NCBI RefSeq assembly: GCF_029227915.1
Contig: NC_079878.1
Coordinates: forward strand, 25,817,501 to 25,881,500
Length of the DNA stretch: 64,000 bases
From: Hydractinia symbiolongicarpus
Taxonomy: Eukaryota > Cnidaria > Hydrozoa > Anthoathecata > Hydractiniidae
Direction of reading: 5' to 3'
The notes beneath the pieces are model-generated. The model was not told the DNA's origin, did no database searches, and worked only from the letters and a program-made list of their open reading frames with translations. A program made the translations under genes and the position numbers. This document shows positions 2,682-60,311 of the stretch, one piece after another (position 1 is the first letter of the stretch; each line of letters opens with the position of its first letter).

Positions 2682-2868
2682 TTAAAAGGTACAGATCAAC
2701 TGGCCTGGTATTTATGATCATTGTGCGAGTGACATTTGAGTTGAAAGAAAGCAATTGAGGGCACACACCCGGATGTGTTCCTTGAGGTAAGAGAGATAAC
2801 TTTCCCTTTTGTTGGCTATTTGTTGACACGTGTGTGTGCAAACCAATTGGGTAAGTGGTTTGTGAACA

Positions 2869-5745
2869 ATGGCAACAACAACATTGAAGGCTCCACCAGC
2901 GTTTAAAGAGGATGATGACTATAGCAGTTGGAAGAACGATTTGGAGATCTGGCAGATGTTTACAAAACTACCAAAGAAAAAGCAAGGTCCAGCTGTATAC
3001 CTGTCACTGACTGGTCGGGCACGGGAGGCAGTACGCGACCTGACACCTGCAGAAGTGGGATCAGATGATGGTTTGGACAAGATTATATCTAAGCTAGATT
3101 CAATATATTTGAAAGATGAAAGCACAAGAGCATTTATTGCTTTTAAAGAGTTTTATGACTATAAGAGGAATAGTGGAGACAAATTTCCTGATTTTATTGT
3201 GCAGTTTGAGAAGCTTTACAATAAGATATCCAAATATGATATGGCATTGCCTGAAGCTGTCAGGGCATATTTTCTTCTCACAGCTGCGAATATGTCTGAA
3301 GAAAATGAAAAACTGGCTCGTACAACTTGTGCAGAACTCAAGTATAAGAATATGAAGGACACAATCATGAAGATATTTGGAGAACTGAACACAGCAGAAG
3401 ACGCTGCACATTTGGGAGCTCTTCCTGTGAAACAAGAATGCTTATATGGAAATCTTCATGCTGATACCAAGGACAGCTTGTCAAGGAATACACGTTCAAG
3501 AATGAATCCTGTTGATAAGGATGGGAAACTCATGAGGTGCCATGAATGTGATTCAACAAGACATTTTGCTAATAAATGTCCTCATAGAAATCAAGAGCAA
3601 AGAGGTTTCAGATCACGGAACAATAGACCTACAGAAAAGAAACAAGATGTAAATGAGATCCATATCACCCTTTTTGCAGCCTCTCCAGACCAAAGGCAAT
3701 ATTGTCTTGTTGGAGAATCCTTTGGTAGAGGTGTCTTGGATTCTGGCTGTACAAAGACAGTGGCTGGGGAGAAATGGATGGATGAATATCTTGGGACTCT
3801 CTCTGAATCAGATAAAAATGCTGTAGTTTCAAATAGTACTGATTCTATATATAGATTTGGTGATGGAAAGGAAGTGAAAGCTACAAGAAATCTAATAATA
3901 CCAGTTATTCTAGGTGGCAACAAGTATAAATTGTCTGTTGACATAGTAGAGATTGAAATACCACTACTAATTAGTCGTAGTACCATGAAGTCTCTCAGTA
4001 TGAAGTTAGATTTTACCAGTGACTTGGTCCTTATTGGGAAGGAAAGAATTAACTTAATATGTACCACAACAGGACACTATTGTCTTCCACTAACACATTG
4101 TGATCTTGATGCTCAAAAAGGAACAAAAATCATTCTACATGGAGAAAATTTGAAAAATATTAGTAAGACAGAGAAAATGAAGAAAGCTATGAAACTGCAT
4201 CGCCAATTCGCTCATGCTGGCAAAGATAAGCTACTCAAACTTGTAAAGGATAGTAATTTGTATGACAAGGAATTTTTGTCATGCATCGAAGAATGTTGCA
4301 ATGATTGTGAAATATGTCACAAATATAAAAGGCCATACAGTAGACCAGTTGTGGGTATACCTCTGGCAAACACTTTTAATCAAGTAATATGTATGGATTT
4401 AAAGGTTTATGAACATAATAAACAACACATCTTACATATCATTGATGCTGCAACTCGTTACTCTGCTGGATGTCTTATCAAATCGAAACATAAAGATGTC
4501 ATTGTCAGTAGAGTGTTTAGATTTTGGATTGCATACTTCGGATCACCAAGTACAATCTTGACTGACAATGGTGGTGAATTCTCGAATGAGGTTTTACAAG
4601 AAATGAATGAAAAGCTCAATATTGAGACAAAAACAACAGCAGGCGAATCTCCTTTCAGCAATGGTATTGTGGAAAGACATAATAAAATTCTGGCAGAGAC
4701 CATGTTCAAGACAATTGAAGATACCAAGTGTGAACCAGACGTAGCACTAGCATGGGCCCTCAGCGCAAAGAATTCTTTACAGAATCATGGTGGCTACAGC
4801 CCAAACCAATTGGTATTTGGCCATAATGTGAACACACCCACTATTCTGACAGATCATTTACCAGCATTGGAGCCAACTACGTCAAGTGAAATAGTGAGAA
4901 AAAATCTATCTGCTCTGCATAAGGCAAGGGAGAATTTCATTAAAGCAGAATCCAGTGAGAGAATTAAAAGAGCGCTGAGACATAATGTTAGAACATATTC
5001 TGATGAGACGTATTTGAATGGAGAAAAAGTCTTCTACAAGCGCAAAAACACCAAGGGTTGGAAAGGTCCAGGTGTGGTTTTGGGACAAGATGGTCAAATG
5101 GTGCTTGTCAGACATGGTGGTAACTTTTACCGAGTGCATCCCTGTCAGTTGATGAAACATAGCCAAAATTGTAAAGTTAGTGAATTCAAGTCAGATCATG
5201 TCAAGAGGAAGGAAAGCCATTTGAATAAGTTGTGTGATATGAACGATAGCGTCAATGATTGTGATAATGATGATGATGATGATGATGATGATGATGGTGG
5301 TGATGATTATGATAATGATGATGATGATGATGATGACACAGCTGATAAGAATGTGATAGATGTTTATGATGATTCTGAAGATGTAGAGCAATATCATCAA
5401 GAACAAGCTAGAAATGTAGACGAAAATGACCAAGAAGATTCTGGCACAAGTGAAAATGAAGTTGAGGAAAACAGGGATACTCATAAAAATAATGAAACTG
5501 AAGAAGACGAAGGTAGTGGTTGTACAAGTGACATTTTCAGAAGACCATCTACAGAATCCAAGAAAGTTGAATCGAAACCAAAAGCAAAATCATACATCAA
5601 ATACAATCTAAATGGAAGATGGTATCGTGCAAGAGTTCTCTCAGCACAACCCAAAAGAAGTGGCACTTATAAAAATTGGGTTAATGTGTCTAATGATGGT
5701 GATAGAAAGCCAAAAAGCATCAATTGGAATGATGTGTCCAAATGA
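2869..5745 (+). CDS. copia gag-protease-integrase polyprotein (first ORF)
   Basis: 958-codon ORF starting with ATG 200 bp after the LTR. Residues 1-200 are a gag-like region with no close match recognised. A CCHC zinc knuckle (C224-X2-C227-X4-H232-X4-C237) follows, then the aspartic protease motif DSG at 291-293. The integrase comes next: an HHCC zinc-binding segment around 443-483 and the catalytic triad D510, D566, E602 with the typical 35-residue D-E spacing. A basic C-terminal segment follows. Residues about 795-830 are a low-complexity acidic tract encoded by a (GAT)n microsatellite at about 5263-5336; it lies in the linker before reverse transcriptase. The ORF stops at TGA 5743-5745, where RT homology continues in the +1 frame. 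In related elements this is one continuous polyprotein, so the stop is probably a mutation or an assembly indel. Confidence 0.92.
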   Translation: MATTTLKAPPAFKEDDDYSSWKNDLEIWQMFTKLPKKKQGPAVYLSLTGRAREAVRDLTPAEVGSDDGLDKIISKLDSIYLKDESTRAFIAFKEFYDYKRNSGDKFPDFIVQFEKLYNKISKYDMALPEAVRAYFLLTAANMSEENEKLARTTCAELKYKNMKDTIMKIFGELNTAEDAAHLGALPVKQECLYGNLHADTKDSLSRNTRSRMNPVDKDGKLMRCHECDSTRHFANKCPHRNQEQRGFRSRNNRPTEKKQDVNEIHITLFAASPDQRQYCLVGESFGRGVLDSGCTKTVAGEKWMDEYLGTLSESDKNAVVSNSTDSIYRFGDGKEVKATRNLIIPVILGGNKYKLSVDIVEIEIPLLISRSTMKSLSMKLDFTSDLVLIGKERINLICTTTGHYCLPLTHCDLDAQKGTKIILHGENLKNISKTEKMKKAMKLHRQFAHAGKDKLLKLVKDSNLYDKEFLSCIEECCNDCEICHKYKRPYSRPVVGIPLANTFNQVICMDLKVYEHNKQHILHIIDAATRYSAGCLIKSKHKDVIVSRVFRFWIAYFGSPSTILTDNGGEFSNEVLQEMNEKLNIETKTTAGESPFSNGIVERHNKILAETMFKTIEDTKCEPDVALAWALSAKNSLQNHGGYSPNQLVFGHNVNTPTILTDHLPALEPTTSSEIVRKNLSALHKARENFIKAESSERIKRALRHNVRTYSDETYLNGEKVFYKRKNTKGWKGPGVVLGQDGQMVLVRHGGNFYRVHPCQLMKHSQNCKVSEFKSDHVKRKESHLNKLCDMNDSVNDCDNDDDDDDDDDGGDDYDNDDDDDDDTADKNVIDVYDDSEDVEQYHQEQARNVDENDQEDSGTSENEVEENRDTHKNNETEEDEGSGCTSDIFRRPSTESKKVESKPKAKSYIKYNLNGRWYRARVLSAQPKRSGTYKNWVNVSNDGDRKPKSINWNDVSK
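5263..5336 (+). repeat. (GAT)n microsatellite inside the copia ORF
   Basis: Two uninterrupted GAT runs separated by GGTGGTGATGATTATGATAAT. They encode Asp tracts in the integrase-RT linker and keep the frame. Microsatellite instability here would change the length of an acidic linker without breaking the ORF. Confidence 0.85.
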
Positions 5746-7220
5746 TGTTGATATGTTTTCACAGGAAGTAGTTGATGCGAAGGAGAGAGAATTGCAGAAT
5801 TTAAAAGAAAATGATGTCTTCGAAGAAGTTCCAGACACTGGTCAAACAACTGTATCAAGCAAATGGGTCATAACTGAGAAGTTCAAAGGTGAAAAAAGGG
5901 TTGTGAAAGCTAGATTGGTGGCTAGAGGCTTTGAAGAAAATTCACAATCGTTGAGAACAGATTCTCCAACTTGTGGCAAACAAAGTCTTCGACTTGCTAT
6001 GGCTATCATAGTTAGCAATGATTGGCAGATCAATTCACTTGATATCACTGCAGCTTTTCTTCAGGGAGATGCTATTGAAAGAGAACTGTTTCTACAACCA
6101 CCAAAAGACACATTGTCATTGGGAACAGTGTGGAAACTAAAGAGATGTTTGTATGGGTTAAACGATGCATCTAGAGCATGGTACAAACGAGTGAGAAATG
6201 AAATGTTGAAACTTGGTGGTGAAATGTGTACCTACGACCCTGCTGTGTTTTACTGGTATAGAGTCAAGCAAATCACTGGAATTCTTGTTTGCCATGTTGA
6301 TGACTTTGTGTATGGTGGTAGTCCAGCTTTCCACAAAGAAGTTATTGCTAAACTTTTCGAAACGTTCAAAATCAGTACGCAATCAAGCTCAACCTTCAAG
6401 TATCTAGGATTAGATGTGGATCAATTTAAAAGCAAAATTAAGATTAATCAAGTGAGCTATATAGAGTCTTTGATAACTGTTAATATTGAAAATGATGTTA
6501 ACAATGAACGAAAATTGACTAGCAAGGAAAAGACCATGCTGAGATCGTTGAGTGGGCAAATTGCTTGGGTGGCCGGACAAACCCGCCCTGATGTGGCTTA
6601 TGATAGTTGCCAAACGTCTAATTATGGCAAGGAACCTACAGTTCAAAATTTGAAAGATGCCAACAAGATTATTCGAAAAATTAAGAGCAAGCATGTTGCA
6701 ATAACCATTGCCAAAATTGCAAATATGAAAAATTGTGAAATTATTTGCTACACAGATGCAACTCATGCCAGTTTGAAGTGTGGATCATCACAAGGTGCAT
6801 TCATCATATTTGTGAAACACCTGAGCGAAGTTATACCAATCTGCTGGCAATCAAAAAAAACTACAAAGGGTAACCAAAAGCCCAATTGCTTCGGAAACAC
6901 TTGCTCTGAGTGAAGGAGCTGATGCTAGTTTTTATTTGGCCAATGTCATACAGCAAATCTGCAAGTTGACGAAGGTTCCAAAGATCACTTGTATTATCGA
7001 CAACAAGTCATTATTTGAAACCTTGAAAACGACAAATGTCACAAAGGATTTGAGATTGCGAGTTGATATAGCCAGATTGAGGCAGATGGTGGAACAAGAT
7101 GAGATTACTGTCAAGTGGGTTGAAGGAAAACACCAATTAGCCGACTGCTTGACAAAACATGGAGCGTCTCCAAACAAGTTGCTTGAGGTTTTGGAGACAT
7201 CCAAAATATCTCTACAATAA
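5746..7220 (+). pseudogene. copia reverse transcriptase-RNase H region, two frame breaks
   Basis: Continuation of the polyprotein in a second frame (open from 5612, meaningful from about 5746). The copia RT core is visible: SSKWVITEKFK, then VVKARLVARGFEE, ITAAFLQGD, LYGLNDASRAWY, and the catalytic aspartate pair in CHVDDFVYGG near 6290-6315. RNase H begins with ICYTDATHASLKCGSSQG near 6745-6800. At 6853-6860 there is a run of eight A. The truncated second copy has seven bases at this place (AAAGAAA), so one base is extra here, and the RNase H end continues in the third frame to TAA 7218-7220. The product as read cannot be one protein. The frame breaks are simple single-base events, so the source element was recently functional or was mobilised in trans. 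Confidence 0.85.
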
Positions 7221-8856: not shown

Positions 8857-9644
8857 ACAAGATTATTCGAAATAATAAGCAAGCATGTTGCAATAACCAT
8901 TGCCAAAATTGCAAATATGAAAAATTGTGAAATTATTTGCTACACAGATGCAACTCATGCCAGTTTGAAGTGTGGATCATCACAAGGGGCATTCATCATA
9001 TTTGTGAAACACCTAAGCAGGTTATACCAATCTGCTGGCAATCAAAGAAACTACAAAGGGTAACCAAAAGCTCAATTGCTTCGGAAATACTTGCTCTGCG
9101 TGAAGGAGCTGATGCTAGTTTTTATTTACCCAATGTCATACAGCAAATCTGCAAGTTGACGAAGGTTCCAAAGATTTCTTGTATTATTGACAACAAGTCA
9201 TTATTTGAAACGACAAATGTCACAAAGGATTTGAGACTGCGAGTTGATATAGCCAAACCGAGGCAGATGGTGCAACAAGATGAGATTACTGTCAAGTGGG
9301 TTGAAGGAAAACACCAATTAGCCGACTGCTTGACAAAACATGGAGCGTCTCCAAACAAGTTGCTTGAGGTTTTGGAGACATCCAATATATCTCTACAATA
9401 ATTGATTGTAGTGATTACCGTTGTGTTTTTTTGATGATTTTAATTTGTCATTTTGACTGTGACAAACAGTTGTAGCATGCAATTTGATGTTCTACTTGTG
9501 TTGGCTTTAAAATTGTGTTACTGCTGGCAATGTTGATTTTGCGATTTGTGTTAATTCTGTTGTTATCTTTCAGTAACCAAAACAATAGTATTAGAGACTG
9601 GTGAAGCTGACTGGTTACCTCATCAAGGTAAGAATCATTTAACA
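8857..9644 (+). mobile_element. Deleted copia copy: RNase H end plus diverged LTR
   Basis: Homology to the neighbouring element starts abruptly at about 8857 (matching position 6664) and runs through the RNase H domain to an LTR at 9531-9644. It is about 95 percent identical by eye. It carries its own frame break: a base is missing near 9016 (CCTAAGCAGG against CCTGAGCGAAG). It also lacks six bases near 9210 relative to 7021-7027. The LTR differs from the intact element's at several sites (ATTTTG for ATATTG, AAAACA for AATACA, GCTGACTGG for GCCTTCAAG). It is older than the intact copy or comes from a subfamily. No matching target duplication is expected because the left end is missing. Confidence 0.88.
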
Positions 9645-11575: not shown

Positions 11576-14500
11576 ATGGATGAATATGAAAGAGCTACTT
11601 CACCCACTGATAGTCTCATTGAAAATGAACAACTCAGCCCAAAACGTGATGATAAAATCTTTCAAGAACGGCAATTAAATGGAGCTGAAATCACATTCTA
11701 TGATATTTGTTATGCAGTTGACATTAAAGCTGGTTGTTGTCATAAAGCTTCAAAAGAGGTACTGCATAACGTGAGGTAATTGTGCAATTTTTCTCTCCAT
11801 TTTTTTGTTTATGAGTATCAGTTGCTTGATTGCTGACAACTTGTATTTCGACTAAAGAGTTGCAGATTCTGTGTCCATTCAATTCTCGTTATAGATCAGA
11901 ATGTTTCAAATTTTTGTAACCTGATTAAACACGTTTGTAGTCCCTCCTTTCAGACAGAAAAGCTAGGTTGTTGTGATAAAAAAATTGAATAAGTTATGTC
12001 GCTAAAATGTGTTTAGAAAAAATTGAACATCGTGCCCTTGTAAAGTAAATGACCATTCATTGGTGGTGACCATTTACAGAATGGATCTTTCACCTACTTT
12101 TCACAATGGTTTATTTTCTTATATATTGTTTCCAGCAAAAATACCAGATTTTCCTTTTGCAGTAACTTAGTAACTTATGTTTATCTTTTTAACCATCAAA
12201 TTGTGAAATTAATTTCTGCTGGATGTACGAAACTAATCTCTGCAGGAAATTCAACTTATTTTTTCATAAAATTGGCTTTATGGCAATTTGTTGGAAGATG
12301 ACCTTAAAGTTTTATCTGTAACTTTTTCTCTCACGTAACGTCACATAAAACTTTAAAAATTGCAAGATTTAAAAATTAAATTTTGTCACAAAAGGCCTGA
12401 TCACTATAACCAATTCTGAAGATTTTGTGTTGAATGAACTGGTCCAATTGATAACTACAACCTGGAGATTTACTGAACCCAATTGAGGAAGTGCAATGAT
12501 ATTTCAAATGAAAAATTTTGGTCACTTACAAATGCCATTGATTGTTGTAGAAAGGTTTTTTAATAAGAGTTTGTAAAATAGTTTGGTTCAGCCATATTGA
12601 GCACTGATATTTATCAGCTATTAAAGTTTAAGCTATTTATATATTTCTCTTTTTTTTCGAATTTAGTGGTATTATGAAACCTGGTTTAAATGCTATTCTT
12701 GGTCCAACAGGCTCGGGAAAAACTAGGTATGTTTGTTTATAGAAAATAATAATTAACGGTGTTATGGGAAAGAGAAAGCTAAATATACTGTATGTAAACA
12801 ATTAAAATATTAAACTCTATTTACACAAATCGCTAAAAAGCTAAAAGTTAAATACACCTTTAATTTAAACACAATTCTACATATAGCTTATTAGATGTTC
12901 TTGCTGGACGTAAAGATAGGAAAGGAATCACAGGACACGTTCTTGTAAATGGAGAACCACAACCTGAAAACTTCCAACTATTGTCAGGTTTTGTATCGCA
13001 GGTAAGAGTGTTATTTTAAAATTCTCTATTGATATTACCATGTTTTCTGCCCCAAAACAATTAATAATTTTGCAATATGTTACACCGCATATTCTTATGT
13101 AATTCCATGTTTTTTCTGATAGGATGATGTTGTCATGGGAACACTAACAGTCCGAGAGAACCTTGCATTTTCTGCTGCTCTCAGGCTGTCAAGTCAGTAT
13201 AGCTCACATGATCGAAAGTCGCGAGTGGATATGATAATTAATGATCTTGGCTTACTAACATGTTCTGACACTAGGGTAAGAATTATCATGTGTAAAAAGT
13301 CTTGTTGTATTAAATAAAATTTAAAATGTAAACTTCTGGTAATTGTTTATGTGTATATTGTTGTTTAAAATCTTTAAAATGATTAGTTTTTTTGTGAGTG
13401 AAGAAATTTAACAAGTGCTATAAATTCTTAAATAGCTAAAACGTAAGAAATTAATAATTTTTTAGGAGAGTCATGCAGTAGCATGGCCATATCAAAAAAT
13501 GGTAAAAAAATCATTTAAAGCGATCCCGAGGCATAAAATGATGTTGCGCTTATATTATGCTCTAAAATTAATGATGACAGAAACTGTCAAAATTTGCTAT
13601 TACTTAAATATGACATCATATATGCAACATAATTAAATCTGAAATTCTTTAAATGTGAATATCTTGAACGAAAAGAGATTTTTAAAAAATTTAAAAAAAC
13701 TTGTTAACAAACTTTTTAAGCTCTATAATATAAGCCCAACAAAATCAAGGCATTCTGAAAATGAAAATGTAATTCTAAAGATTGTAAAATTGTGTGTTTT
13801 AAGGTTGGAACAGACGAGATACGTGGCATATCAGGGGGAGAACGCAAACGTACAAATATTGGAATGGAGTTGATCACGCAACCAGAAGTTTTGTTTCTGG
13901 ATGAACCCACAACAGGTCTTGATTCTGCTACTGCAGCTTCTGTCATGAAGCTATTAAGAAGGTAGTGAAGTAATATTAAAGTATTTCTATCCTGCTTGTT
14001 TTTTATTTTTTTAAATAGTAAAAAGTTTTACAAATTTTTGCCTTTAAAGGACATCCCCACAAATTTTGCCGTTTCATTACCCCAACCCCCTTCTCCACTG
14101 CTTTTTTTAATTCCCCCATCCTTATGTCTGTACGGATCAGAATTTTAATATTTTTGCTAATTCTTAAAGCTTTTGTCTCCTAGCCTTGCTTTCCTTTTGT
14201 TTTTTTAGGCAAGCCAAGAAAGGACGGACAATTATTTTCTCTATTCATCAACCTCGTTATTCAATATTTAAATTATTTGATGACATAACCTTGCTATCAA
14301 AAGGTTGCGTTGTATATAAAGGAGCAACAAACGATTCGTTGAGCTATTTTGAAGCACTAGGTATGCATAATCTTCGCAAAATAAAGTGTGTTTTAAACAA
14401 CTTATATTTTTGTTAGTGTGGCCACACTAAATAACCCAAAATATTGATTCCTTTCTTAAAACCTCCTGAAATTGTTTATCCAGCCATTTATTTCTTTATT

Positions 14501-17500
14501 TGTAAGTTTCTATTGTCATGTTTTGAAAAAGATTAGTGTAAAAAGTTTTTGTTCTTAGTTGTCCATTACGTTCTGTTTTGTTTTGATGTGATATTTTGAA
14601 ACAAACCTTTGACAGGGATATAAACAACAGTCAGCACGTTCTTCGTGGTGTCATCGATTAATGCTTGGTTAATTAATGGCAATTCTGGAGAGTACCTTCA
14701 AGTTAATGGTATTATAGTATGCGTTGATGTGTTACTTAATTATATTTTCAGGTTACCAATGTGAGACATATAACAATCCTGCTGATTTTTTTATGGATGT
14801 GCTTTATCTTGATGAGCGAAAAAAACAAGGTACTGTTTACATTGTATATTTGTTTGTTTTGCATATTTTAAGTATAATGCCAATGTAATGTCATCAGAAT
14901 GTTCCAAAGCCTTGTTCACCCTGATAACTCGAGCGAAATCTAACTGACTGTTTTTAGTTATGGTAGATTACAAATAATTTAATGTTTAAATGGATTCCTC
15001 ACTGTATTCTTAATTGTTTGGTTAAAGTGAAATTTATGCGAAATTTATTGTTCATCATTTCAAAACAGGACAGCAAAATCAGTGACCAATATTACCTCGA
15101 TTAATTTATTATTCTCAAACATTTCTTAAACACTGAAAATGTATTTGCTGTGTGTCTTTATTATTATCTTATTTGATATAACCAATTGGCTTTTTAAAGT
15201 ACAACTTTCTCTCTTGTCATGTATTTCATGATAGACTATTTTTTTCTTGTTTTTAGGTTTTTTTTTCACTAAACAATTTTAACAATAAACTTGTTCGCTG
15301 TTATTTAGCGATTTCGTAGCCATGCTTGTTATAATAAGTATTTAGTTACTTCCATTGTCCCCACTTATACATACAAAATTGACAGTATTTCAAAAGCAAA
15401 GTTGAAAAGGGAAGTAAATTTTTAAATGCCTCAAAATTGATATTATCTATAAACAATATTATATATACAATTTATGTATAAGGTGTTAAATATTTGTGTA
15501 ACAAAAAAGAATACATAATTATCTTGCTATACTACCAATATCATTACAATTACAGTTTAGGAATGTTCGTTATCCATAATGTTTTTATAATGAAGTGCAA
15601 AGAAAGACATTTAAGTCAACATTTTTTGACTAAGTCAGAACTCAACTTAGAAATTCCTGTTAAATAGAATAGACTTATAAACCTCTTCTACGAATATAAA
15701 AGTAATTAAAATTTATTTTTGTGTTAGAGTGACCATCATATCTTTTTTTAACGTCACCAGTCCATTGTTTTGCAACGAAATTTTATCTGTTATTGATTCA
15801 CATTTCATTCTAATATTCTCCGTGTCAGCTTGTATTGATTGCAGCAATTCGCGGAGGTTGGATTTGTATCTTTGTCGCCATTCTGTTAATGTTAGACCTT
15901 GGTCTAGTAATGGTTCTAATAAGGAAGTAACACTAAAGTTATCATGATATATAACATTTTTAAACTTGGTATGTAGTGAATTAAAAAATTATTTCCAGCC
16001 ACTGATTTGTTGGTTCTTGCTGATCTTCAGTTGAAGATCCTTTAATGTAGTGCTAACGTGGAATTATCAATAATAAAACCCTTTTAATTCATTCAGTTTT
16101 CATGAATCAACATTGTGTGTTTCCTATTTTCACATGTTTTTTACACCTGTAGCTACTTTTATTAATTAAAAAAATTTCCCAAATTGAAAATCCAAATTAC
16201 AAGAGATTCTTATTATTATTTACACACACCTGTTTTTGTTTTTTAATAAAGTTTATTTTTAATTTTCTAAATGATTTCATTTTAGGAAAAAGCAGTGACC
16301 TTTTTTTGGCAGACTTAAGTTTGTCAGAAAAAATATGTGGAAGGACAAATTTTTTGCTAAGTCGCATTATTAGTGCTTTATGCAGTAACTGTCGAAAAAA
16401 AATTAGACCAGATTGTATTTTCCTATTTGACTTTCATGTTTTCCTGCAGCAGTGTTTATATTTCGACAATCATACTTATGGAGAAAATTTAATGCACAAT
16501 TTTAACAGGACAAAGTTGCAAATTTTCTTTTATTTTTGCCTAAAATATTTTCTATTACTTTAATGTCAGAAATTTTCTTAAGCAGCAATTTATTTTTACG
16601 AATAGACTTTTTTAATAACTTAGGAATTAAATTAGAATGTAAAATTGAAAAGAAATTAATTGTATTTACATAAGCTCCACATAAACTTTCACCTTCATTC
16701 AAGTAGGTTTTTTTCAGCGAAAATAAAAAAGTGAATCAACCAATAAAAATTTGCGAGGATTTATTTTCACGAATTAGAACCTAGAAGATTTGTAACCATT
16801 TCACACCTGCGCTTAATCCTTCATCTTCTTTCTTTCTCCAAATTTCTCTTTTATCCCACATTACTCCAATAATGAAAATTATAACTAATGCAATTGCCAT
16901 GGCAAAGATTGAGATTAGAAAGGAACTCTGTGTTGGATCAACTAAGTTTTGTGACTTTTGAACAGCAGAGTTCATCATCGACATCTATAACAAAAAATCC
17001 ACAGTCTAAATGCTAGTCTCTTACGAACCAAAAAAAATATACCCACGTTCATGATTAGTAAAAAAAATGGTATAGTTCCTAGTGCTGTTTTCTATTTCGT
17101 TATGAACAGTTTTAATCTGTTTCTATAGCAACATGTTCCTTTTTAAACAATTCCCTATTAACTCACTTTGATTGGTTCAACATTTTCTGCAATCATTTCG
17201 AATACTTGTGCTTGTCTTGAGAGAAAGTAATCTCTTACGCAGGAAGCATATTTCAATCCCTTGTTTGTGAAAACGATGCCATTACTACTGACATATTCAA
17301 TTATACCATCCAGATGATACTTGCTTAACTCTTCTTGATACCCTGCAGCAACATAGCTATCGATCAAAGCACCTTGAACACGTTGATCAGCTAATGCTTT
17401 GATGATCTCGTCTATTGTGTGAAATGCTAAAAATTATATTTAAAGTTAAACTGTCTTAATCCTCTTTGGCTACAGGCTTCTATAGGCTGTTTTCATTGGC

Positions 17501-20500
17501 ACGAATAATGTCTCAAACATGATTAACACAAACGTAAAATTTTTAGCCGGATGTGTATTGAAAAAATGATAAGCGTATAGTACCGAATTAAGTTGGTATG
17601 ATTGGACAACTTGATCTTTTGTTTGATACATTAGATATGTGAAAAAGTTAGATTTAATGCACCTTTTTCTCGTGGTACACATATTAAAAATTAAACAAAC
17701 AAAAGAATAAATAGAATAGTTATCTTTTGAACCAATCATTGAAACCAAAATAATACGTTACGTTACAATTAAAAGTGTAAATCTGGCTTAATGAGTTTGT
17801 GTAGCAAGAGAAATGTTAAAAAACAACAACCAATGGACATTAGAAATGAATGAATTAGCATTTTTAAGCCTACAAAGGTTCTTTACCCCAAATCCTACTC
17901 AAGCATAAAGTTAGTTAATAGAATGTCTGCAACTTGTAATATTTCTGGGGGTATTAAGTATTCTTTTTTAGTTTTTTCAATTTTTTTTTAAATAAACGCT
18001 TTTGTTTGTTTACCATTGCAATGGAAGTACAGGCTTAGTAATGGATGTAGATAAAATGAAATATAAATTTAACACACAAATATGCTTATGCATTGTAGTA
18101 TACATATTGTAGATAACATATCTTATTCACTCATTTCTCACCTGTGGGGATTCCATTTTTTTTCAATGTGTACTTATGTTCTTCACTACCTTGTATCACA
18201 GCAATCTAAATGAGATTTGTGTAAAAAAAAAAAAACCTCTTGACTCAACTTGTTTGTTTATGGAGAGAAATTATTTGTTGATGGAGTAAAACAACTAGAT
18301 TTGATATTCAATGAAACAACACCTCTCTTGAGCGAAGCAAAAAAAAAAGTTATGAGACAAAAATTGTGAATTCATTTATATTTATAAAGAGAAAAGTTTT
18401 TTTTAGTATTTACCTCCAAACCGCTCACAGTGACAGTTTCATGTAAAACCGCAGATGTCAATATCGAAGTTATGAATGATGTGAACAGCGCACAGCATGC
18501 GACACCGGTTAACACCCATACGATACTAAATAACTTGCCTGCTTTTGTTTTTGGACATATGTCACCATATCTAAATAAAAATCCTTCCGTTTAATTATAT
18601 CTTTCGTCCCAAGTTATAATTCTCCAAAGTGATTTCACACAAAAACATTTGCATTAGGAATCCTGTTGTTACCAAAATGGTGTGTTACCCGAGATTACTT
18701 TTTTAAATATGTAATTTAACAGCTTGAATGTTTAAATCTGCTACTTTTTTCTTAAAGTTAAAATGTATACAACAGGTTACCCCACAGTAGTCATGGAAAC
18801 AAACGCCCACCAGAAGCCGTGAACAATTTTTCTGGGAAAGGATGTACCAAGTATGATAGCCTCCTAAAAATACAGATGATTATTTAATGGTATTTTGTTT
18901 AGTTATTTAATTTTCATTGTTTCCATTACCATTTAGAGGGTAAATTAAAGTGTTTTTTTTCCAATAACATAAATTTTGTTCAGCAACAATTGTACAATTG
19001 TAATGTGGCAGAGCACAACAAACCTAAAGAGACAACAATTACTTTTTGAACACCAAGAGATTGTACAGGCAGGGAAACCATACAATTACAGCCACTGTTG
19101 TTGCTTTAAGAGCATCAACTCTCGGAGGAAGAAACTTTAGCAAGGTCTTGAAATTAAAAAAAGTGCATAAACTTTCGCGATGCAATTTTTTCTTTCTTTT
19201 TAATTTGGCGTAAAAAATTTTCGTGAGAGGTTTTTTTTAAAAAATTTTGCATGAAATAAACGTGGGAAAAGGATATGAAGTTTGCAAAAGTTTTGTAAAT
19301 GAAGTCACTTGCAGAAGTAAATACATACAGAACGAACAACAGTTTAGGTGAAGAAACCTGCATTTTGCTCACATACTTTATGAACTTACTATGAGACAAA
19401 AAATTGTTCCAGAGATTGCTACCAACAAAAACATTAACGTTATCAGGGGCCACGTTGATGAAATGGCTTGCACAATAGCTTCTCCAGCAGATGGGTTTGG
19501 TAACACGTAAAATGCAAATCCAGGACTATCAACTATGATGCATAAAACAAAAGGTGATAAAAAAGCTATAAAGTTCTGGTATCCTTAAAAATATAATAAC
19601 TATTTCCTCTAGTGAACACTGCAGCATTTATTGCGCATATTTAGAAATTCAATGTTCATGATTAGAAGTGGTCTATTAGAAGACAATGATTATTTTGAAA
19701 TAGTTTTAGAAAGTAAACGCAACCCTTTATAGTAAAAAATTAAATTAATTCAAACCATAACCATATGATAAAGATATTGAATGACGTACTATTGTTTTTA
19801 TATTGAAAAGCGTATCATCTTTGGTTTTTTTCCTGTCCTAAGTTCATTTTCTAATACCTCCTGTTTTTTATAATCTCTATAATATAAGGTGCACCCCTCT
19901 TCGATAGAGCTGCATTTATTACAGTTATTTTTAGTTAATTTCTTTGGTTCAGTGTTTTTTTAACAAATCTGACAATCACAGCAGAATTTGTTTGTATGCA
20001 AAATTCACCAGTTTTGATTTCAAGCTTTTTGATAGTGCAAATCAAATAGACTTCATTTGGAAGGATAAAAATTTTAAATAATTAATTACCAAGATCTCAC
20101 CTGCAGACACGAATGGTTTCGTCAGATATTTCTTACTCTTTGTATTCATTTGTACTGGCATGATAAAGTCAATTGTGTCATTCATAGCGATACCAGCTGC
20201 TTCATTTTGTCCACTATATTCTAATTGATAAATAAGGTTTAGCTCCCCTCGACAACAACTTCGCAGTGCTATTTTGAACAAGTTGGATACAACACCAGTG
20301 TTGTTGACATTGCTGATGTTCATGATGTAGGGTTGATAACCACGCCACGCTATGCGGTTTTCTTCCAAGCATAATGGTTTTGATGGAGATGCAGATTGGC
20401 TACCTGTTATTAAACATTTATCTGAGTTAATTAACTTGTGTACAGGTTACACCACTTTTACGTGTTAACCGTTAACAGTCGATAATCTAGCAAAAATAGC

Positions 20501-23500
20501 TTCACACTTAAACTATACCTCCTGAAAAGTAGGCCGTTATTAGAAGTGCTCCCTGTGTTTTGGAAGAGAATGAATCAGGCTACTCAACAGTATTAAACAT
20601 GAACCACGTAGGTCTTTTTCTAAGCCATCTGCTAATTATTTGTTGACCAGGAAAGGGTCTTTACAAATACTGTTGCGTATTCTAAGGATTAAATAGCGGG
20701 AGAAAAACTTTTCTTAATTTTCTGCAGGTTATGCTGGGAAAATTTATGCAAGTATTTTAATTTCATTTTAGATAAATTTTTCTTTTAATAAGCACAGATG
20801 GATGAAAGCTCTTCTGCATAACTCAAATATTTTGGTTATAAAAAAAGAACTCTTCCGCATTGATTTAGAAAGTTTTGAGTTGATTGAAAATAATGCTGAT
20901 TGTTTTGATACTCATATTATCTAATATTATCTAAGTTTGTGTTTTTGTTGTGCGATATGGATCAATGATTTTACCTTTGATTGCAAACAGGAGTGTCCAT
21001 AGTATAATTAACATCTCTATCACATGCCTAAAAAACGAGTGGGGTTTTTTATTACATATAATGTGTATATGATAGTCTGTCCACACTGTCACAAATGTCA
21101 ATAATTGTCAGGAATTTTTAAAATATTGTCAAAATGTACATTTCAGGTCTGTTCTTAAAGAAAAAGTATTGATTTAATACAGTATGTTTTAACGTGCTTC
21201 CAATAACATTCTAATAAGTGTGAAGTTTCGGCGCAAAATGGCTGAAAATGATAATAATAATCGAAAAGTTCATCGGCAGAAAAATGATTCATAGTAAAAT
21301 TACAGACGTCGGCAATTTTTTATCTCCAACGATCAGTTTCTTTTATAATGTATTTTATTCGTCAACATGGCTTATGCCGTTCAAATGTTATTTGAAGTAG
21401 TGAAATCCATATTTAAAAGTATAAATAGGCTTAAATAATAAAAGATAAATATAGGGATTTTCAAATTTAAACCTTAGCCTTCCTTCAAGGTTGCTTATAC
21501 ACAAAGCTGTGTAACATGCAATAAGTGACTTGTAATATTTCTTAAAATTAATAAAGAATTAGAATGAAAAACAAAATGGATATAAAATAACTATCTTCCA
21601 AACTTTCATATAACACACAAAATAACGAAATTATAAAAACAAAATAATGTTAACATCCTATCATTTAATCTTCTGCTTTTTTTTTTTTTTTTTCAGTTTA
21701 AGATAAAATAAAGAATACATTCTTTTTAATTATCACTTTAGCGATCTCAGTTTTGCTTAACTTGCCTGTAAATTGTTGCTATGGTTACAGAACCAAACTT
21801 AAAATCAGGCATAATTTTTGCACCTTCACTTTTCTTACGTACACAAACCAACAATGAAGATACCTGACAAGTTATCATACAAACGAAGCAAAAAATTCAT
21901 GAAACAAACATACACCTAAAGTAAGAAGAATTGAAAACTTTAGAGCACAGTTGTTTTTACCAACAATTAACGCACAAGTCCAACACTCTCCACACTCCAC
22001 AGTTGTTTTTACCAACAATTAACGCACAAGTCCAACACTCACCACACTCCACAGTTGTTTTTACCAACAATTAACGCACAAGTCCAACACTCACCACACT
22101 CCACAGTTGTTTTTAGCAACAATTAACGCACAATTCCAACACTCACCACACTCCAAAGTTGTTTTTACCAACAATTAACGCACAAGTCCAACACTCACTA
22201 CACTCCACAGTTGTTTTTACCAACAATTAACGCACAAGTCCAACACTCACCACACTCCAAAGTTGTTTTTACCAACAATTAACGCACAAGTCCAACACTC
22301 ACTACACTCCACAGTTGTTTTTACCAACAATTAACGCACAAGTCCAACACTCACCACACTCCACAGTTGTTTTTACCAACAATTAACGCACAAGTCAAAC
22401 ACACACCACACTCCACAGTTGTTTTTACCAACAACTAACGCACAAGCCCAACACTCGCCACACTTGCCACAACAAATTATCGGTAATATCAGCCACTTCT
22501 CTTTTCTGAACGCTTTAAAAGATTTCCCTTTGACTGGAAATATAAATGACAATTCAAGTTAAAATTTTCTGGATCTTTAAAATCATATTCATATTTTATT
22601 CATAATTTTATTTTGTGAATTTGTTTTTTTTTCTTTTTAAGAACTACTATATATTTTTATCACCCTTCTAACACAGGAGGGTGTCTGGAATTATGGAGAT
22701 AGACTTCATGTGTTCTTTGTTGTTTAAATGAGTTGTCTAAACTCTACAAACAAAATTCTCTCATGAATTATTTACTACATCAGATAAAAAAAGAAGTAGA
22801 TATTTTTAGCTCAGTGTTTTATAGCAAAAAAAGTGTGTAATTTACTTACTTTTGAGTAGATATAATGGAGTGAAAACTGTTTGTCAAAAAAAATTAACCG
22901 CGTTACTGTTCGGTAAAATACACACTGTTTGAGATGTTTAATAAAATCGTGTACAAACGAGTATAAACTCGTCCTGGAGAAGTTTGTGGTTTCAAACGAG
23001 TTCGTCATAACGAACCTCGTGTTAAAACGAGTACAAACTAATTCTAACGAAGTTTATGGTTTCTAACGATGGTTTCAAACTCTTTTTACCGCCCATCTCC
23101 AGATAAAACACTGACGTTGAATAAGATTTTTATTTAAGATATCTTTTTGCTGACATAGTCATCAATAAGAATGAGCTACCAGTCATCCTGATGCAACGAG
23201 AACATACAAATAAAAATAATAACATAACAGTTGCAAATATATCTGTCAGATGCATCATCATGAAATTTAGCGTGTATAAGATGGTAAGAAGAAGGAAAGA
23301 GATCTTTTTTATATAAAGTAATGTGAAGTAATGGTTGGCTCTGTATTTCTATCAATTGTAATGCAAATCACTGAGAAGAAAATATTTATCTCTCTTTCCT
23401 GCTACACACTTAAGTTTGCAGAGATGTCAATTGACAACACAACGTGCAGTGTGTGTTATAAAATATTAAAAGTTTTGATGAGTTCCAGTGACGGTGATGT

Positions 23501-26500
23501 ACTTCTTAACAATAGCTACAGAAGGGAAATGTTATCATAACGTATTCACACATGAACTGACAATTTTAGATGTTCAATAAACACTTCTTCAGCTTCTCGT
23601 TAAATCATGGCTTCTTGTATTCTACGCAGAGTTGTATCTCTAACATTCGCATGTTTTTCCAGAATGCAGATGTTTTTTTCTTAAAGTACTAATGTTGTGT
23701 GTTGTGGAAATGAGTTTAACATAACAACACAACAAAGGGAATATTAGTAAAACATTAACATGTTTTGCCTTTTATTTTATCCGACACATATTTAAGACGC
23801 GCTACTTTTTTGGCAAATTTATAATAAAATTAAAACGTTTTTATATGATAAAAACGTTTAAGATATAAGGGAACTGAAGAGTCTTTCGTTATTGCGTCGT
23901 ATATTTTCTCTTAAATGAATTTCCTAGATGCCGTGGATTGGTCGTTTTGTTAGCAACCCTAAATAAATGTAGCCATGTGACATTGTACACAGAATGTAGT
24001 CATGTAACGTTGTACACAGAATGTAGTCGTGTAACGTTGTACACAGAATGTAGTCATGTCACGTTGTACACAGAATGTAGTCATGTCACGTTGTACACAG
24101 AATGTGGTCATATCACGTTGTACACAGAATGTGATCATATCACGTTTTACACAGAATATGGTCATGTAATGTTTGGACAGAATGTGGTTATGAAACTATC
24201 AAAAAAATACGAAACAAAATCTGCCAGCTTGTTCGTCGTGACTATTTCTAAAATTGCATGCTATATTATTTTTGTACGAAATTATTTAGATTTTAATTTA
24301 AAATAATTTTTTTCAGTTGAAAATTCGCTAAGTGATGCAGCTGTTCTGGATAAGAAGGGAGAAGAAGAGAAGGCAGAAGATAAGAATATCCCGTTATCTC
24401 AGCACTACTTACGTTCTAAATACTACAAAGATGCCATGCTTGAAATTCAACCGAAAATTGAAGTGCTGGAGAGAAACGACAACATCGTGCATAACAACGT
24501 GAAGGGAAAATACGCTAGGTCTTTCTTTTCTCAGGTACGTAATGAATGTCTTTCAATAAAGCGTTTTTCGCAGCTCTGAGTGTTTAGTATCTAGGTATTC
24601 GCATTTTGATAGCATTGCAAGTTAAGATGAGTTTTAACTTCCATATTTTTGCAGACATCTTTTTACAAGTAAAAAAATTTTAAGAAACAATCTGAACACC
24701 CACATATCCAAACTGGGAGCTGTGGTTGTAAGAAAGCAGCTTCATGATAATAGAAGCAGTGTGTCAGCAAGTGTTGACAAGCATGCTAAAGGGCGTGACA
24801 TGTGACACAATTTTTGTAAACAAAATGCCAGTTTAGAAAATAGTACGTGGCAATTGTTTTGACTTTTATTAGCTAGTTTTTTTATTGGTTTGGTTAAAAA
24901 ACATTTACTACTCGCGTATTATGTATGCAATGTGGCATTTATCTTTATATATAAACCATGGCGACGTAGCTCGGTAGTTATAACTCCTGAACTTCGTGCA
25001 TGAGACCGGCGTTTGTTTTCTCTTGGCGGGAATTTAATATGGCGAGTGAATATTACCATGACCATGGGTTAACCTCTGCCACGAAAAGGAAATAGTGGAG
25101 ATGGCACACTGTGTGAGCCGTTGGATGTTGCAGAGAATTATCTGGTAGAGCATGAACCCCAATAAGGTCTGCATAGCTCAAAATGAGCATTAAAAACTCC
25201 AGGACTCCCCATCCAAGCCATGGCCCCTCCTGGAAATAATAGATAGCGTATATCCCTTGATATTTGTGAGGCTAGCCATGTAAACTATGCACACTATCTA
25301 CGTATAAATATATATACCACGGTAACGTATAGCTATATGCACCATGGTAAGGTATAGTTATATGTACCAAGGTGCATATAGCTGTACGTTACCATTAGCT
25401 ATATATACCATAGTGACGTGTAGCTAGCTACATACACCATAGCTCTTTATTCCATGTGAATACAAAGTTACACGTATACTACGTATGTAGCTATATGTAT
25501 CATCGTAATAATGTATATAGATAAAACAAGTAAACTACAAAAAACTAAAAAATAGGTTGATGTTGAAAGTGGAGTGCTTCAGAAAAGGGGGCGAGCTTTG
25601 CAAGCTAATATGATATATAATTTGACTAATATGTTTAGACCGGCATAGTATGTCGAAGAACGTTAATGAATATATTGAGAGATGCACGAAGTCTCGGCAG
25701 TCAAGTAGGTTAATTTTCCTCACCCCTTATCTTCTCAATGTTTTGTGATTTAGAATTACTGAAGAGTTAGTTAAGCTCTGTACAAAAGATAAAGTTTACG
25801 AACCATTTTTCCGGTATATTTCCGGTTTAAGTTCTTGTAGTATAACATCTGATAGTTGCAACCGAAGGTAATATAGCTAACGATTTTTTTTTCAACAATT
25901 ATAAACAACAAAGTTAGTGTTTTAACGACTTCGGCCACAAGCACGACTTTTTTAATAATAACAATAACGAAAACAATTACAGCGCAGTCAGTTTCGATGT
26001 AATTTTGACTCCATCAACAACTCTCACAAAAACGATATTACGATATTACTATCTACGACAATCACGACACTAACAGCTACGACGGCATTGACGTCATTAG
26101 TGGCTATTATAATGACGGTATTTTTTTTTACTTATTAGATAGCTATTAACATCTTAATGGCTCTCATCATCGGAGGGATTTATTGGAATGTTAATAATGG
26201 CCCAAACGGACTTATGAACAGGTACAAAAAGTAGTTACACCAGCCATGAATTGTTGTACACAAAATGTAGCCATGTAACATACAAGGAATGTGGTCTTGT
26301 AGTGTTGTGCACAGAATGTAGCCATATAGTTTTGAATATTTTTTTTATTTCTAGAGTGGGTGTTTTCTTTTTTATGACAACAAACATGGTTTTTGGAAAC
26401 ATGAGTGCTGTCTCGTTGTTTATAAAAGAACGACGAATATTTAGGTATTTTTTTATTTGTTTATTTGTTTTGAATATTTTATGTAATTTACTAATCTGGT

Positions 26501-40500: not shown

Positions 40501-43500
40501 AGCACTAGTCCCTCCGTCTATGTGACTTTGCAACGCACAAACTGCAAATTATGTCGTAACCCGGGGGTAGTGGCTCTCTCAACCAACCAGTATTCCACTT
40601 TTTCAGGTAAAATTCACTACCAAATATAATTTACCTTTCAGTCCCATGCTTTATAAGGAAACCCCGTTATAGCAGATATTCTTTACCCCATAAAACTGAC
40701 CTCTCCTGCACCTGCAGACACGCCCAACAATGGGTCATATTAAACTATTCTTTGATTGTCTTTATTCTCTTTCTGATCCGATAACTTTTAACAGCTATGG
40801 TAGTGATATGTAATCTAAAAAGTTTCTACTGATTCCATGAAAACGAGACGGAGTAACTTAAGCTAAATAACAACGCGAAAGTCAATATAAATTTTAGTCA
40901 ATTATCCTGAAAACTGCATTATGGGAGAATTTTGACAAAGAGAAACAGTCTTATCTTAGCACATTACATTCATTTGAAATGAATTTTTTACACATTAAAT
41001 TAAAGTAAATTTTTATTACAGTTTTAATATTCGTCACCATCATCATCCTTATCTTCATCCACACTATCTGTGCCCACCTCTTCATAGTCCTTCTCAAGTG
41101 CAGCCATATCTTCTCTAGCTTCACTAAATTCTCCTTCTTCCATACCTTCACCAACATACCAGTGGACAAAAGCACGTTTTGCATACATCAGATCAAATTT
41201 ATGATCCAAACGAGCCCAAGCTTCTGCAATAGCAGTGGTGTTGCTCAACATACACACAGCTCGTGACACTTTCGCCAAATCTCCTCCAGGAACAACAGTT
41301 GGTGGCTGGTAGTTGATTCCAATTTTAAAGCCAGTTGGACACCAGTCTACAAATTGAATGGTGCGTTTTGTTTTGATATTGGCGATGGCAACATTGACTT
41401 CTTTAGGAACCACGTCGCCACGGAATAACAGACAGCACGACATATATTTGCCGTGTCGAGGATCGCACTTCACAAGCTGGTTTTGTGGTTCAAAACAAGC
41501 ATTGGCGATCTCTGATACCGTGATCTGCTCGTGGTGGGCTTTCTCAGCTGAAATGATTGGAGCATATGTTGCCATGGGGAAATGAATTCGGGGATATGGT
41601 ACCAAGTTGGTTTGGAATTCCGTTAAATCTACATTCAGTGAGCCATCAAAACGAAGTGATGCGGTGATACTTGAAACAATTTGACTGATAAGTCGGTTTA
41701 AATTGGAGTAAGTGGGTCGCTCGATATCAAGTTTTCTGCGGCAAATGTCGTAGATGGCTTCGTTATCTACCATAAATGCACAATCTGAATGCTCCAAGGT
41801 GGTGTGAGTGGTTAAGATAGAATTGTATGGTTCCACAACGGCGGTACTTACTTGTGGAGCAGGATAAATTGCAAACTCAAGCTTTGATTTCTTTCCATAG
41901 TCAACAGAGAGCCTTTCCATCAGTAGAGAAGAAAACCCAGATCCAGTACCTCCACCAAATGAATGGAAAATCAAAAACCCCTGGAGACCTGTACATGCTT
42001 CGCTGAGCTTGCGAATGCGATCCAAAACAGGGTCGATAGCCTCCTTTCCAATTGTGTAATGACCACGTGCGTAGTTATTTGCTGCATCTTCTTTACCAGA
42101 GATCAGTTGTTCAGGATGAAACAATGATCGATATGTACCCATACGGACTTCATCTAAAGAAATATTTGATGGTGAAGTGAATACAAAGGTTATGTCTTAG
42201 AAGTAAATTAATAAAAAAATAAAAAACACAAATCTTTTTTCAACCTCGTCCCCATACTTCTTTGTTCTTGTTAAATCGGAATAACGTGACAAAATAAGGG
42301 ATTATCGAAACATCGTGGAAAATTAAGATTAATTTTATCGGAAAAAAAAGAATGCGGCGTAATGTTCAAAATAAAAGAGATGATGACCTTTCAGCTATGT
42401 AGTAGCGCTTATAAGCTTCTTTTAAATAAAATAAAATGATAGAGATGACCTGAAAGATAACAGATAAACAAACAAGAAAGAAACTTTTGTAATTATTGAA
42501 AAGTGGTCTCGATAAAACCATGTGTGGATATAAAGTTTTTATTCTTTTCAAAAACTTCTCGCCAATGCCATTCATGATTTGTCCAATTAATACATAATTC
42601 AAAAAACACGTTTGCTAACGTCTCTTACCAATTACACTTGGTTCCAGGTCTACAAAGACAGCCCTGGGCACATGTTTGCCACTGTCCGTTTCACTAAAGA
42701 ACGTATTAAACGAATCATCTCCACCACCAAGGGTAGTATCAGATGGCATCTGTCCATCAGGCTGAATACCATGCTCTAAGCAGTATAATTCCCAGCATGC
42801 ATTTCCAATTTGGACACCAGCTTGACCGACATGAACAGAAATACATTCACGCTATGAAAAGATATATAAATGTAAACGACATCTTTTCAAAAAAAACAAA
42901 ATAGTACATCCGCTGAACTGAAAAACCCGAATATAGAGTTCTTTGATTGTATGGGTCAGAAATAGTTCGCTGATGAAGGTTCTTAGCTGGTATTGCAAGT
43001 TGAAGTTGGCAAACGCTGTGTTGAATATCTGTTTCATGAAAAAAAATTACAAATAAAAACTAATTTTTTATTTCTAGTTATCCTGTAATTAGTACTAATA
43101 AAATGAAATTTATGTTTAAAAACATGTACTCATTTTTTAAAAGAAAAAAGATTTTTTAAAAGAGTTTTTTTCGTTAAATTGATGATATATCTAAGCACAG
43201 TTGAAATGGAAAGATCTGGGAATGAAAACTGGTGCAAAAATCATCCCTAAGTTGTTTAAAAGCAGCTTCATTTAACTGACGTGGGAAAAATTATTTCAAG
43301 TAAAACCTGAAAAAGATATTTTACATCAGTGATAAGATATAAGAGTTGACAAAAGAAAAGAAGCTAAACGTTATTAATTAAACATGCCAGTAAATTTTCA
43401 AGATCAACATATTAGAATATTCTTAACTTTTTGTGTAATTTCATTCTTATACAGAGTATATTTTTATAAAAAAACAGTTAGGGTGTAAACCAAAAATAAA

Positions 43501-59567: not shown

Positions 59568-60311
59568 AATTTTTGTTGTTTCCTCTTCGTCTTGAGAATT
59601 TTGTTAAAACATAATATTTTCTACTTTACTTTTAAGCAGGCTAAAACGATAACATATTCAAACACTATTCAAACACTATACTTTATTTGTATACAGATAA
59701 CTTGTGCAAATCCAATATAAAATATATTATGAAGCTGTATATCTCGCTGTGTGTATTAAGAATAACGTTTGCAAGTGAAAGATAAAAATTAACTATATAA
59801 ATAATATATGGTATAAATTAAACCACAAGTCTACCAAATATATCAAATATTAATTAATTCTATTCTGAATTTACTAAGCAACATGTCCGATGTTTCATAC
59901 TTCACTGAACGACAATTTTTCCTCCCCTGTAATGGTAAACGCTATCAATTATTTAAACTTGGTATTACCTAACAGATGGATAGAATATTCCAAAAGAGAT
60001 CTAATCAGGGGACTTCCTACCCAATATTGATAAATTTCAGGGCGTAGCCAATGGCGGGTAGAAAGGCGACTGCTGTGTGAACACCTTTGACGCAAACATA
60101 AAGGAAGAATATCGAAAAGTTTTGATATATCCTTGCGTTTGAGTCTACGTTTACAGTACAGTAACACATGCAAGAATATTCTCAAGAATAAAAATAGCTA
60201 CGAAAACTGTGATAATTTGAAATCAGAAATTCTACTGAAAATTGAATTTTTAGAAGAAAAACTGAAAGAAAGTTGCTTTTGACAAATGAAGAACTTTTTA
60301 AAGCGGCTTTA
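59568..60311. other. Spacer upstream of the hydrolase gene
   Basis: AT-rich, contains the hydrolase promoter on the minus strand. No other feature is recognised. Confidence 0.45.

Follow-up and report, generated by a model that had tools for sequence, protein, structure and literature searches.

A GluR0-like gene with a potassium-channel filter in the hydroid Hydractinia symbiolongicarpus and its relatives in cnidarians

Introduction

A gene of the hydroid Hydractinia symbiolongicarpus joins the selectivity filter of a potassium channel to segments resembling the ligand lobes of ionotropic glutamate receptors (iGluRs), which raises the question of whether it encodes a ligand-gated K+ channel and whether it stands alone. 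The gene lies on the minus strand of a stretch of 64,000 nucleotides (NCBI RefSeq assembly GCF_029227915.1, contig NC_079878.1, positions 25,817,501 to 25,881,500), here called the window, and all positions are counted within it. Passages of two reviews named GluR0 and AvGluR1 as K+-filter iGluRs and described AvGluR1 as a presumed evolutionary intermediate (PMC12332018, PMC11479355). The passages of two broad iGluR surveys gave cnidarian NMDA-type and AKDF groups and no cnidarian K+-filter group (PMC6307864, PMC12226733), and no description of cnidarian K+-filter iGluRs was found among the listed matches, seen in part, from the open-licence PMC literature. The analysis below indicates that the window gene quite likely encodes a subunit of a ligand-gated K+ channel of iGluR/GluR0 build, which belongs to a family expanded in the hydroid and is probably inhibitory.

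Gene structure and protein layout

The window gene showed nine exons from 15713 to 21014 and encodes 476 residues (Table 1). The first-pass annotation had placed a eukaryotic glutamate receptor gene of eight exons and 417 residues at 16781..21014. That model was reproduced with GT/AG at its junctions and consistent phases, and its 5' end at 21014 was retained, but a splice donor after 16807 lies inside its last exon (16781-16984), which had read through, and the ninth exon at 15713-15915 had been overlooked. Exon 8, which ends at 16807, is spliced to this ninth exon, which carries the remainder of P0001, a protein of 476 residues with 98% identity to the window protein. P0001 came from two contigs of at most 1,811 bases each, with the source label 'lgn', which we take to denote an assembly of public reads. 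It supported all eight exon junctions, included the pore exons, whose skipping had been named as a result that would speak against the receptor, and departed from the 417-residue model after GLSA. The nine-exon product and P0001 are equal in length and differ by 10 substitutions. A gene of 5.3 kb with eight introns would not fit on a contig of 1.8 kb. P0001 therefore most plausibly represents a spliced transcript, either from a close relative or from another individual, and it could conceivably be a processed copy instead. An extra exon at 19043-19146 between exons 3 and 4 was rejected as it broke the frame and was absent from P0001, and another boundary between exons 2 and 3 (436-residue product) was rejected as P0001 followed the junction of the 417-residue model. 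Bacterial contamination, already argued against from the introns, was rejected on account of the introns, the chromosome-scale contig and the cnidarian relatives.

The protein read as a hydrophobic leader (signal peptide by eye), S1, M1, pore loop, M3, S2, M4 and a tail, where S1 and S2 are the ligand-lobe segments and M1, M3 and M4 the membrane segments. Hydropathy peaks above 2.0 were found at residues 144-162, 206-224 and 373-391. The last of these follows S2 and was assigned as M4, so the protein does not end without M4 in the manner of GluR0. No amino-terminal domain was found, as S1 starts about 25 residues from the start codon and the window protein had no Pfam match to such a domain; in this the iGluR-type layout drawn earlier was upheld. 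No voltage-sensor membrane segments were present between the leader and M1, where the sequence was hydrophilic and rich in N-glycosylation sequons.

Family members in cnidarians and in the same genome

A protein search with the window protein produced 48 family homologues (P0001-P0048), all with E values of 1e-14 or better, and a profile search covering 8,000 candidates added P0063, P0064 and P0065, which brought the family to at least 51 members. Two fragments (P0066 and P0067) and the K+ channels among the matches were left out of this set. All 15 of the 51 relatives bearing an organism name were cnidarian (Hydra, Hydractinia, Rhopilema with four, Dendronephthya, Xenia, Pocillopora, Stylophora, Porites, Acropora, Nematostella, Actinia and Actinostola) and the other 36 bore no name. 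Several members carried the labels 'potassium channel' or 'uncharacterised', and for this reason surveys of iGluRs may miss them. Outside the family set, the strongest full-length match was to P0049, a bacterial-type GluR0 (profile E 1.2e-29, 122 bits). The compact gene of the first-pass annotation is real but not isolated, having relatives in many cnidarians and in its own genome. One Rhopilema member (P0063, 768 residues) had further Pfam domains ahead of its K+-filter iGluR-like part, presumably Ig and CUB as read from their accession numbers, a combination that we do not know from other iGluRs.

In the H. symbiolongicarpus genome, 46 loci (L095-L140) were chosen from the genome matches of P0014 (LOC130641614 of this species, matching C4:17488078-17490459, on the contig that also carries the window, with 94-100% identity per piece). 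Several matches were left aside and the window gene itself was absent from them; all counts in this genome are lower bounds. In 43 of the 46 loci, lobe segments occurred together with all or part of a K+-type filter; L120 and L132 matched in the pore alone and resemble ordinary K+ channels, and L123 matched in S1 alone. The filter lay in one exon in 25 of the 43 loci, as TTVGYGD in 20 and as ATVGYGD, TTVGFGD, TSVGYGD, TTVGYGE or STVGYGD in the other five. In the remaining 18 loci YGD opens an exon, and the filter half before it reads TTVG in 12 and TTLG in four (L130 and L131 by DNA pattern alone), with no sure first half in L126 and L128. In the window gene the intron divides the filter glycine codon (GG/A), and a DNA pattern for the same codon-splitting phase-2 junction (GG/N TAY GGN GAY) was found in 16 of 20 loci (L121-L140). 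A total of 24 loci (L095, L097-L119) were long open frames without the filter intron, one of them (L115) broken into two frames. These intronless loci were spread over contigs C4, C5, C6, C7, C11, C12 and C13, with clusters at C13:7.74-7.85 Mb and C5:21.36-21.37 Mb; RNA-mediated copying followed by tandem duplication is one possible reason. Among the paralogues the lobe sequences diverge while the filter stays nearly fixed.

Filter, M3 signature and topology

The K+-type filter TTVGYGD that had been noted in the pore was confirmed in the spliced window gene and was present in all 51 collected relatives. An iGluR-type M3 signature was kept beside it, with T220 in 48, T224 in 47, L227 in 49 and T228 in 50 of the 51 rows. 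The commonest M3 sequence in the family was FTATVTTSLTA, and the window gene has its own 11-letter version (letters not shown).

Across the family, sequons were dense in S1 (163 in 6,668 residues, 24.4 per 1000) and near absent in M1-P-M3 (2 in 4,949 residues, 0.4 per 1000) and in M4 plus tail (8 in 5,257 residues, 1.5 per 1000). This distribution fits an extracellular S1 and a pore that would be inverted as in iGluRs, with the placement of S2 less clear by this measure. The orientation of GluR0 was reported as opposite to that of canonical K+ channels in one paper (PMC13099474).

Homology of the segments flanking the pore

The segments around the pore were compared with known ligand lobes after the pore had been removed. 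A profile of S1 and S2 from 11 family members, with the pore cut out and an artificial GGSGG linker inserted, had as its top match among PDB chains the GluR0 ligand core (1iit/1ii5, E 8.8e-7), followed by a bacterial iGluR homologue (2pyy, E 3.4e-4) and then by the binding proteins 4zv1 and 2pvu. Among relatives whose lobe structure has been solved, GluR0, which had been cited as a precedent, was thereby the closest that was found. Three gp41 constructs among the 18 sequences of this search matched the GGSGG linker and were discarded. In a pore-less hhalign comparison, the S1 and S2 of the 51-member family aligned with the GluR0-type lobes of 79 of 80 fetched bacterial loci plus P0049 with a probability of 96.5 (E 9.9e-10, score 70.5), compared with a score of 17.0 for the reversed profile and a mean of 13.9 (maximum 22.8) for 100 column shuffles. 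As a negative control, the part of RCK-type K+ channels that follows the pore was aligned with both lobe sets, and the probabilities were 0.1 for GluR0 and 1.5 for the family. At full length and with the pore kept, the family and GluR0 profiles matched in one collinear run from S1 by way of M1, the pore and M3 into S2 (E 1.1e-31), and P0049 aligned with the family profile in the same order from S1 through the pore into S2. In addition, Pfam Lig_chan was matched by 48 of 48 family members at E ≤10, and it exceeded the Pfam cut-off in five of eight cnidarian-family members scanned singly. Because of the collinear P0049 match, the pore-less lobe match above its shuffles and the first rank of GluR0 in the PDB, the tests say that the flanking segments would be ligand lobes and not an arbitrary ectodomain on a K+ channel.

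Seven conventional-type iGluR frames of the same genome (L001, L003-L008) had no GYGD by eye. The S1 of bacterial GluR0 matched these frames with a probability of 97.9, and any link of the family S1 to conventional iGluRs would run through GluR0. In each of them S1, M1 and M3 shared one uninterrupted reading frame (324-396 residues), and S1 had a CC pair.

Points against a ligand-gated channel

Several results weigh against the reading as a ligand-gated K+ channel, and the first group concerns the lobes. The PDB search with the pore-less profile was significant over S2 only, the S1 match being subthreshold. Against a narrower GluR0 set (117 sequences), the hhalign probability was 88.9 for both lobes, 72.7 for S1 and 9.7 for S2, although the lobe scores each exceeded their 30 shuffles. 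The family S1 profile gave a probability of 2.5 against the seven conventional-type frames. In the window protein itself Lig_chan stayed below the Pfam cut-off (14.9 vs 30.8 bits, E 0.023), SBP_bac_3 was matched by one of 48 members only (E 0.0066), and S2 sequons were few (33 in 7,282 residues, 4.5 per 1000).

K+ channels were the best PDB matches both of the window protein (among the best 60 of 291) and of the full family profile with the pore included (among the best 60 of 454). The best Pfam scores were also for K+-channel pores, with Ion_trans_2 at 3.1e-16 in the window protein, and NCBIfam produced sub-cut-off matches alone, the best of them to K+-channel pores. These rankings speak for a derivative of a K+ channel, voltage-gated or two-pore, whose ectodomain is unrelated. 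Such an origin is nevertheless highly improbable, since no voltage-sensor segments precede the pore, GluR0 heads the PDB matches of the pore-less profile, and the family profile gave P0049 122 bits, compared with 67 for P0050, the highest-scoring K+ channel listed. A Kv-type channel with an unrelated ectodomain, the case that had been named beforehand as speaking against the receptor, was disfavoured by the pore-less matches, though the full-length PDB searches rank K+ channels first.

The second group concerns the ligand. In iGluR structures an Arg in S1 binds the alpha-carboxylate of the ligand, and the S2 Asp and a Ser or Thr in the loop before it are further ligand contacts. The Arg was invariant in 24 of 24 bacterial GluR0-type rows. 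At the same position the 51 family rows had Met in 33, Leu in 6 and Thr in 4, and no Arg occurred among the eight commonest states (one of them a gap), which cover 50 of the 51 rows; the family-GluR0 alignment has a 3-residue gap beside this position. Some intronless loci had Arg residues near it in a stretch of uncertain alignment, and a shifted Arg is possible there. The S2 position (Asp286) was Asp in 50 of 51 family rows and the contact loop before it had Ser or Thr in 49 of 51; of the pair that binds the amino-acid backbone (Arg with Asp or Glu), the family kept the Asp without the aligned Arg. The Asp was found in all 14 other Hydractinia loci with that stretch aligned, while the 24 intronless-type loci had Asp in 6, Asn in 17 and Ser in 1.

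Because the GluR0 Arg is not conserved, glutamate is a doubtful ligand, and the name glutamate receptor, taken as a statement about the ligand, was not sustained; the family is better placed as a variant, possibly GluR0-like in its working, than among glutamate receptors proper. With the S2 Asp often replaced by Asn or Ser in the intronless loci as well, it is doubtful that much of the family binds amino acids. Where the Asp occurs without the Arg, the ligand would more likely bear an amine or be non-classical in some other way. The same residues, that is the changed Arg position and the Asn or Ser in 18 of 24 intronless-type loci, would suit a K+ background channel, constitutively open or otherwise gated, whose lobes serve folding, assembly or protein contact and not a ligand. 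We consider this quite unlikely, given the S2 Asp and the contact-loop Ser/Thr kept across nearly all family rows and the Asp of the 14 other loci, and given lobes that diverge among paralogues around a nearly fixed filter, as would fit receptors for different ligands.

Phylogeny and origin

In a full-length tree of 60 rows and 414 columns, 38 K+-filter family rows fell on one side of a branch with support 100/99, and 16 bacterial GluR0 rows together with six conventional-type iGluRs fell on the other, so that the family did not group with conventional iGluRs. The window gene joined P0003 (99/96) and then P0002 (100/99). The tree was unrooted, its six conventional rows were all from this genome, and a long-branch warning applies at that join. 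A pore-only tree of 109 columns that included K+ channels again placed the window gene with P0002 and P0003, left the deep branches unresolved and showed a spurious long-branch join (kch_P0076). C_L109 (no open-reading-frame pattern match), iglur_L001 (no M3 pattern) and kch_P0050 and kch_L132 (both short) were left out of the trees.

The family may have arisen by retention, transfer or reversion, given an unrooted tree, a thin sampling of conventional iGluRs and long branches that meet. Acquisition of a GluR0-like gene from bacteria by an early cnidarian through horizontal transfer, as opposed to a retained ancestral K+-filter iGluR or a reversion from a conventional one, would agree with the best outside match being P0049 and with the cnidarian origin of all 15 organism-named rows. 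It is judged unlikely, as the family has M4, introns and a post-M4 tail, which GluR0 lacks, and as the unrooted tree sets bacterial GluR0 with conventional iGluRs across the branch, which does not favour a recent transfer. The 36 of 51 rows without an organism name likewise count against it.

Proposed function and significance

Starting from the observed gene structure, conservation, filter, lobe homology and minimum family size, a working model would supply the tetramer, the gating, the K+ selectivity, the ligand and the physiological sign. The window gene would encode one subunit of a tetrameric K+ channel of the plasma membrane, in which an extracellular two-lobed domain of S1 and S2 would bind a small ligand and close. 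Closure would pull on M3 and open the inverted pore with its TTVGYGD filter, and K+ leaving the cell would hyperpolarise it. The members of the family would most likely serve as inhibitory receptors that respond to a variety of cues, environmental or internal. The proposal of a ligand-gated K+ channel thus keeps its filter and gains GluR0-like lobes, but the identity of the ligand is doubtful and M4 is present. Judged from its sequences, the group would best be described as a cnidarian family of GluR0-like iGluRs that bear a K+ filter and M4.

The chances seem about even that Cnidaria hold an unrecognised receptor superfamily of ligand-gated K+ channels, an iGluR-derived chemosensory and synaptic repertoire of inhibitory sign that runs to dozens of divergent members in a single hydroid. 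The spread of the family over the cnidarians alters the picture drawn in the review passages, where GluR0 and AvGluR1 are the K+-filter iGluRs named, and the question of how GluR0 relates to animal iGluRs gains a large animal sequence set with both the K+ filter and M4. The family also suggests a fast inhibitory or sensory receptor class beyond the chloride channels with which a 2026 study of cnidarian inhibitory receptors is concerned in the passages available (PMC13335744). Passages of a Hydractinia single-cell paper gave Gene Ontology terms for iGluR signalling in one neuron cluster (PMC12464821). The idea can be put to the test directly, since both Hydractinia and Nematostella are kept as laboratory animals.

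Feature coordinates and other features of the window

The exons of the window gene and the intron within its filter are given in Table 1.

Table 1. Exons of the window gene and the filter intron, with the basis of each assignment
Feature	Position	Strand	Basis
Exon 1: start codon and hydrophobic leader (13 protein letters, not shown), signal peptide by eye	20975..21014	minus	Splice model; start and sequence shared with P0001
Exon 2: most of S1 (first ligand-lobe segment), 3 N-glycosylation sequons	20101..20403	minus	Splice model; family profile matches GluR0 S1
Exon 3: end of S1 and M1	19390..19532	minus	Splice model
Exon 4: M1-pore linker and pore helix; stops within the filter (TTV and two Gly bases)	18781..18863	minus	Splice model; same filter-codon junction in 16/20 scanned loci
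Intron dividing the K+ filter codons (TTVG/YGD)	18571..18780	minus	Splice model, locus scan
Exon 5: YGD, P-M3 loop, M3 (11 protein letters, not shown), start of S2	18414..18570	minus	Splice model
Exon 6: S2, putative ligand-contact loop (QGSEE)	18142..18205	minus	Splice model
Exon 7: S2 with conserved Asp286 (ALIDSYVA)	17167..17426	minus	Splice model
Exon 8: end of S2 linker, M4, start of tail	16807..16984	minus	Nine-exon model
Exon 9: remaining tail and stop	15713..15915	minus	Nine-exon model; junction also in P0001

A minisatellite lies 5' of the channel gene at 21946-22464 (52-base unit, 10 copies, 95% matches), and a second array with a 27-base unit at 23966-24192. Long open frames at 2866-7220 and 8931-9401 looked by eye like a copia-type retrotransposon and a partial second copy. 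Also by eye, plus-strand frames at 14168-14888 resembled exons of an ABCG-type transporter, a minus-strand frame of 390 residues at 41024-42196 resembled alpha-tubulin, and frames at 53089-53619 and 58773-59603 were ZP-domain-like and alpha/beta hydrolase-like, respectively.

Comparison with known systems

GluR0 (Synechocystis Slr1257; PDB 1IIT, 1II5, 1IIW) and the family share the S1-M1-P-M3-S2 order, the K+ filter and the lack of an amino-terminal domain, and the GluR0 S2 lobe was recognisable in the family without the pore (E 8.8e-7); Slr1257 itself was compared through the PDB search alone. They differ in the alpha-carboxylate Arg, invariant in the bacterial GluR0-type rows and not conserved in the family, and in M4, which the cnidarian family has and which GluR0 lacks according to passages of one review (PMC11479355). 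AvGluR1 of Adineta vaga, compared by description only, is likewise an animal channel of iGluR type that combines a K+ filter with four membrane segments, but it is a single rotifer protein of eukaryotic iGluR architecture with a broad amino-acid ligand profile, as described in passages of two reviews (PMC12332018, PMC11479355). Conventional metazoan iGluRs (AKDF, NMDA, epsilon, lambda) have the lobe order, the type of M3 motif and M4 in common with the family, which differs from them by a K+ filter in place of a Q/R/N-site pore, by the missing amino-terminal domain and by the unconserved Arg. Many insect ionotropic receptors lack the glutamate-binding Arg; to our knowledge they are cation channels without a K+ filter, and they were set beside the family by description. 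Like the family, they are derived from iGluRs and expanded, according to one paper (PMC2924276). If the cnidarian superfamily is real, it would parallel the insect receptors with opposite polarity and would provide fast inhibition independent of chloride channels.

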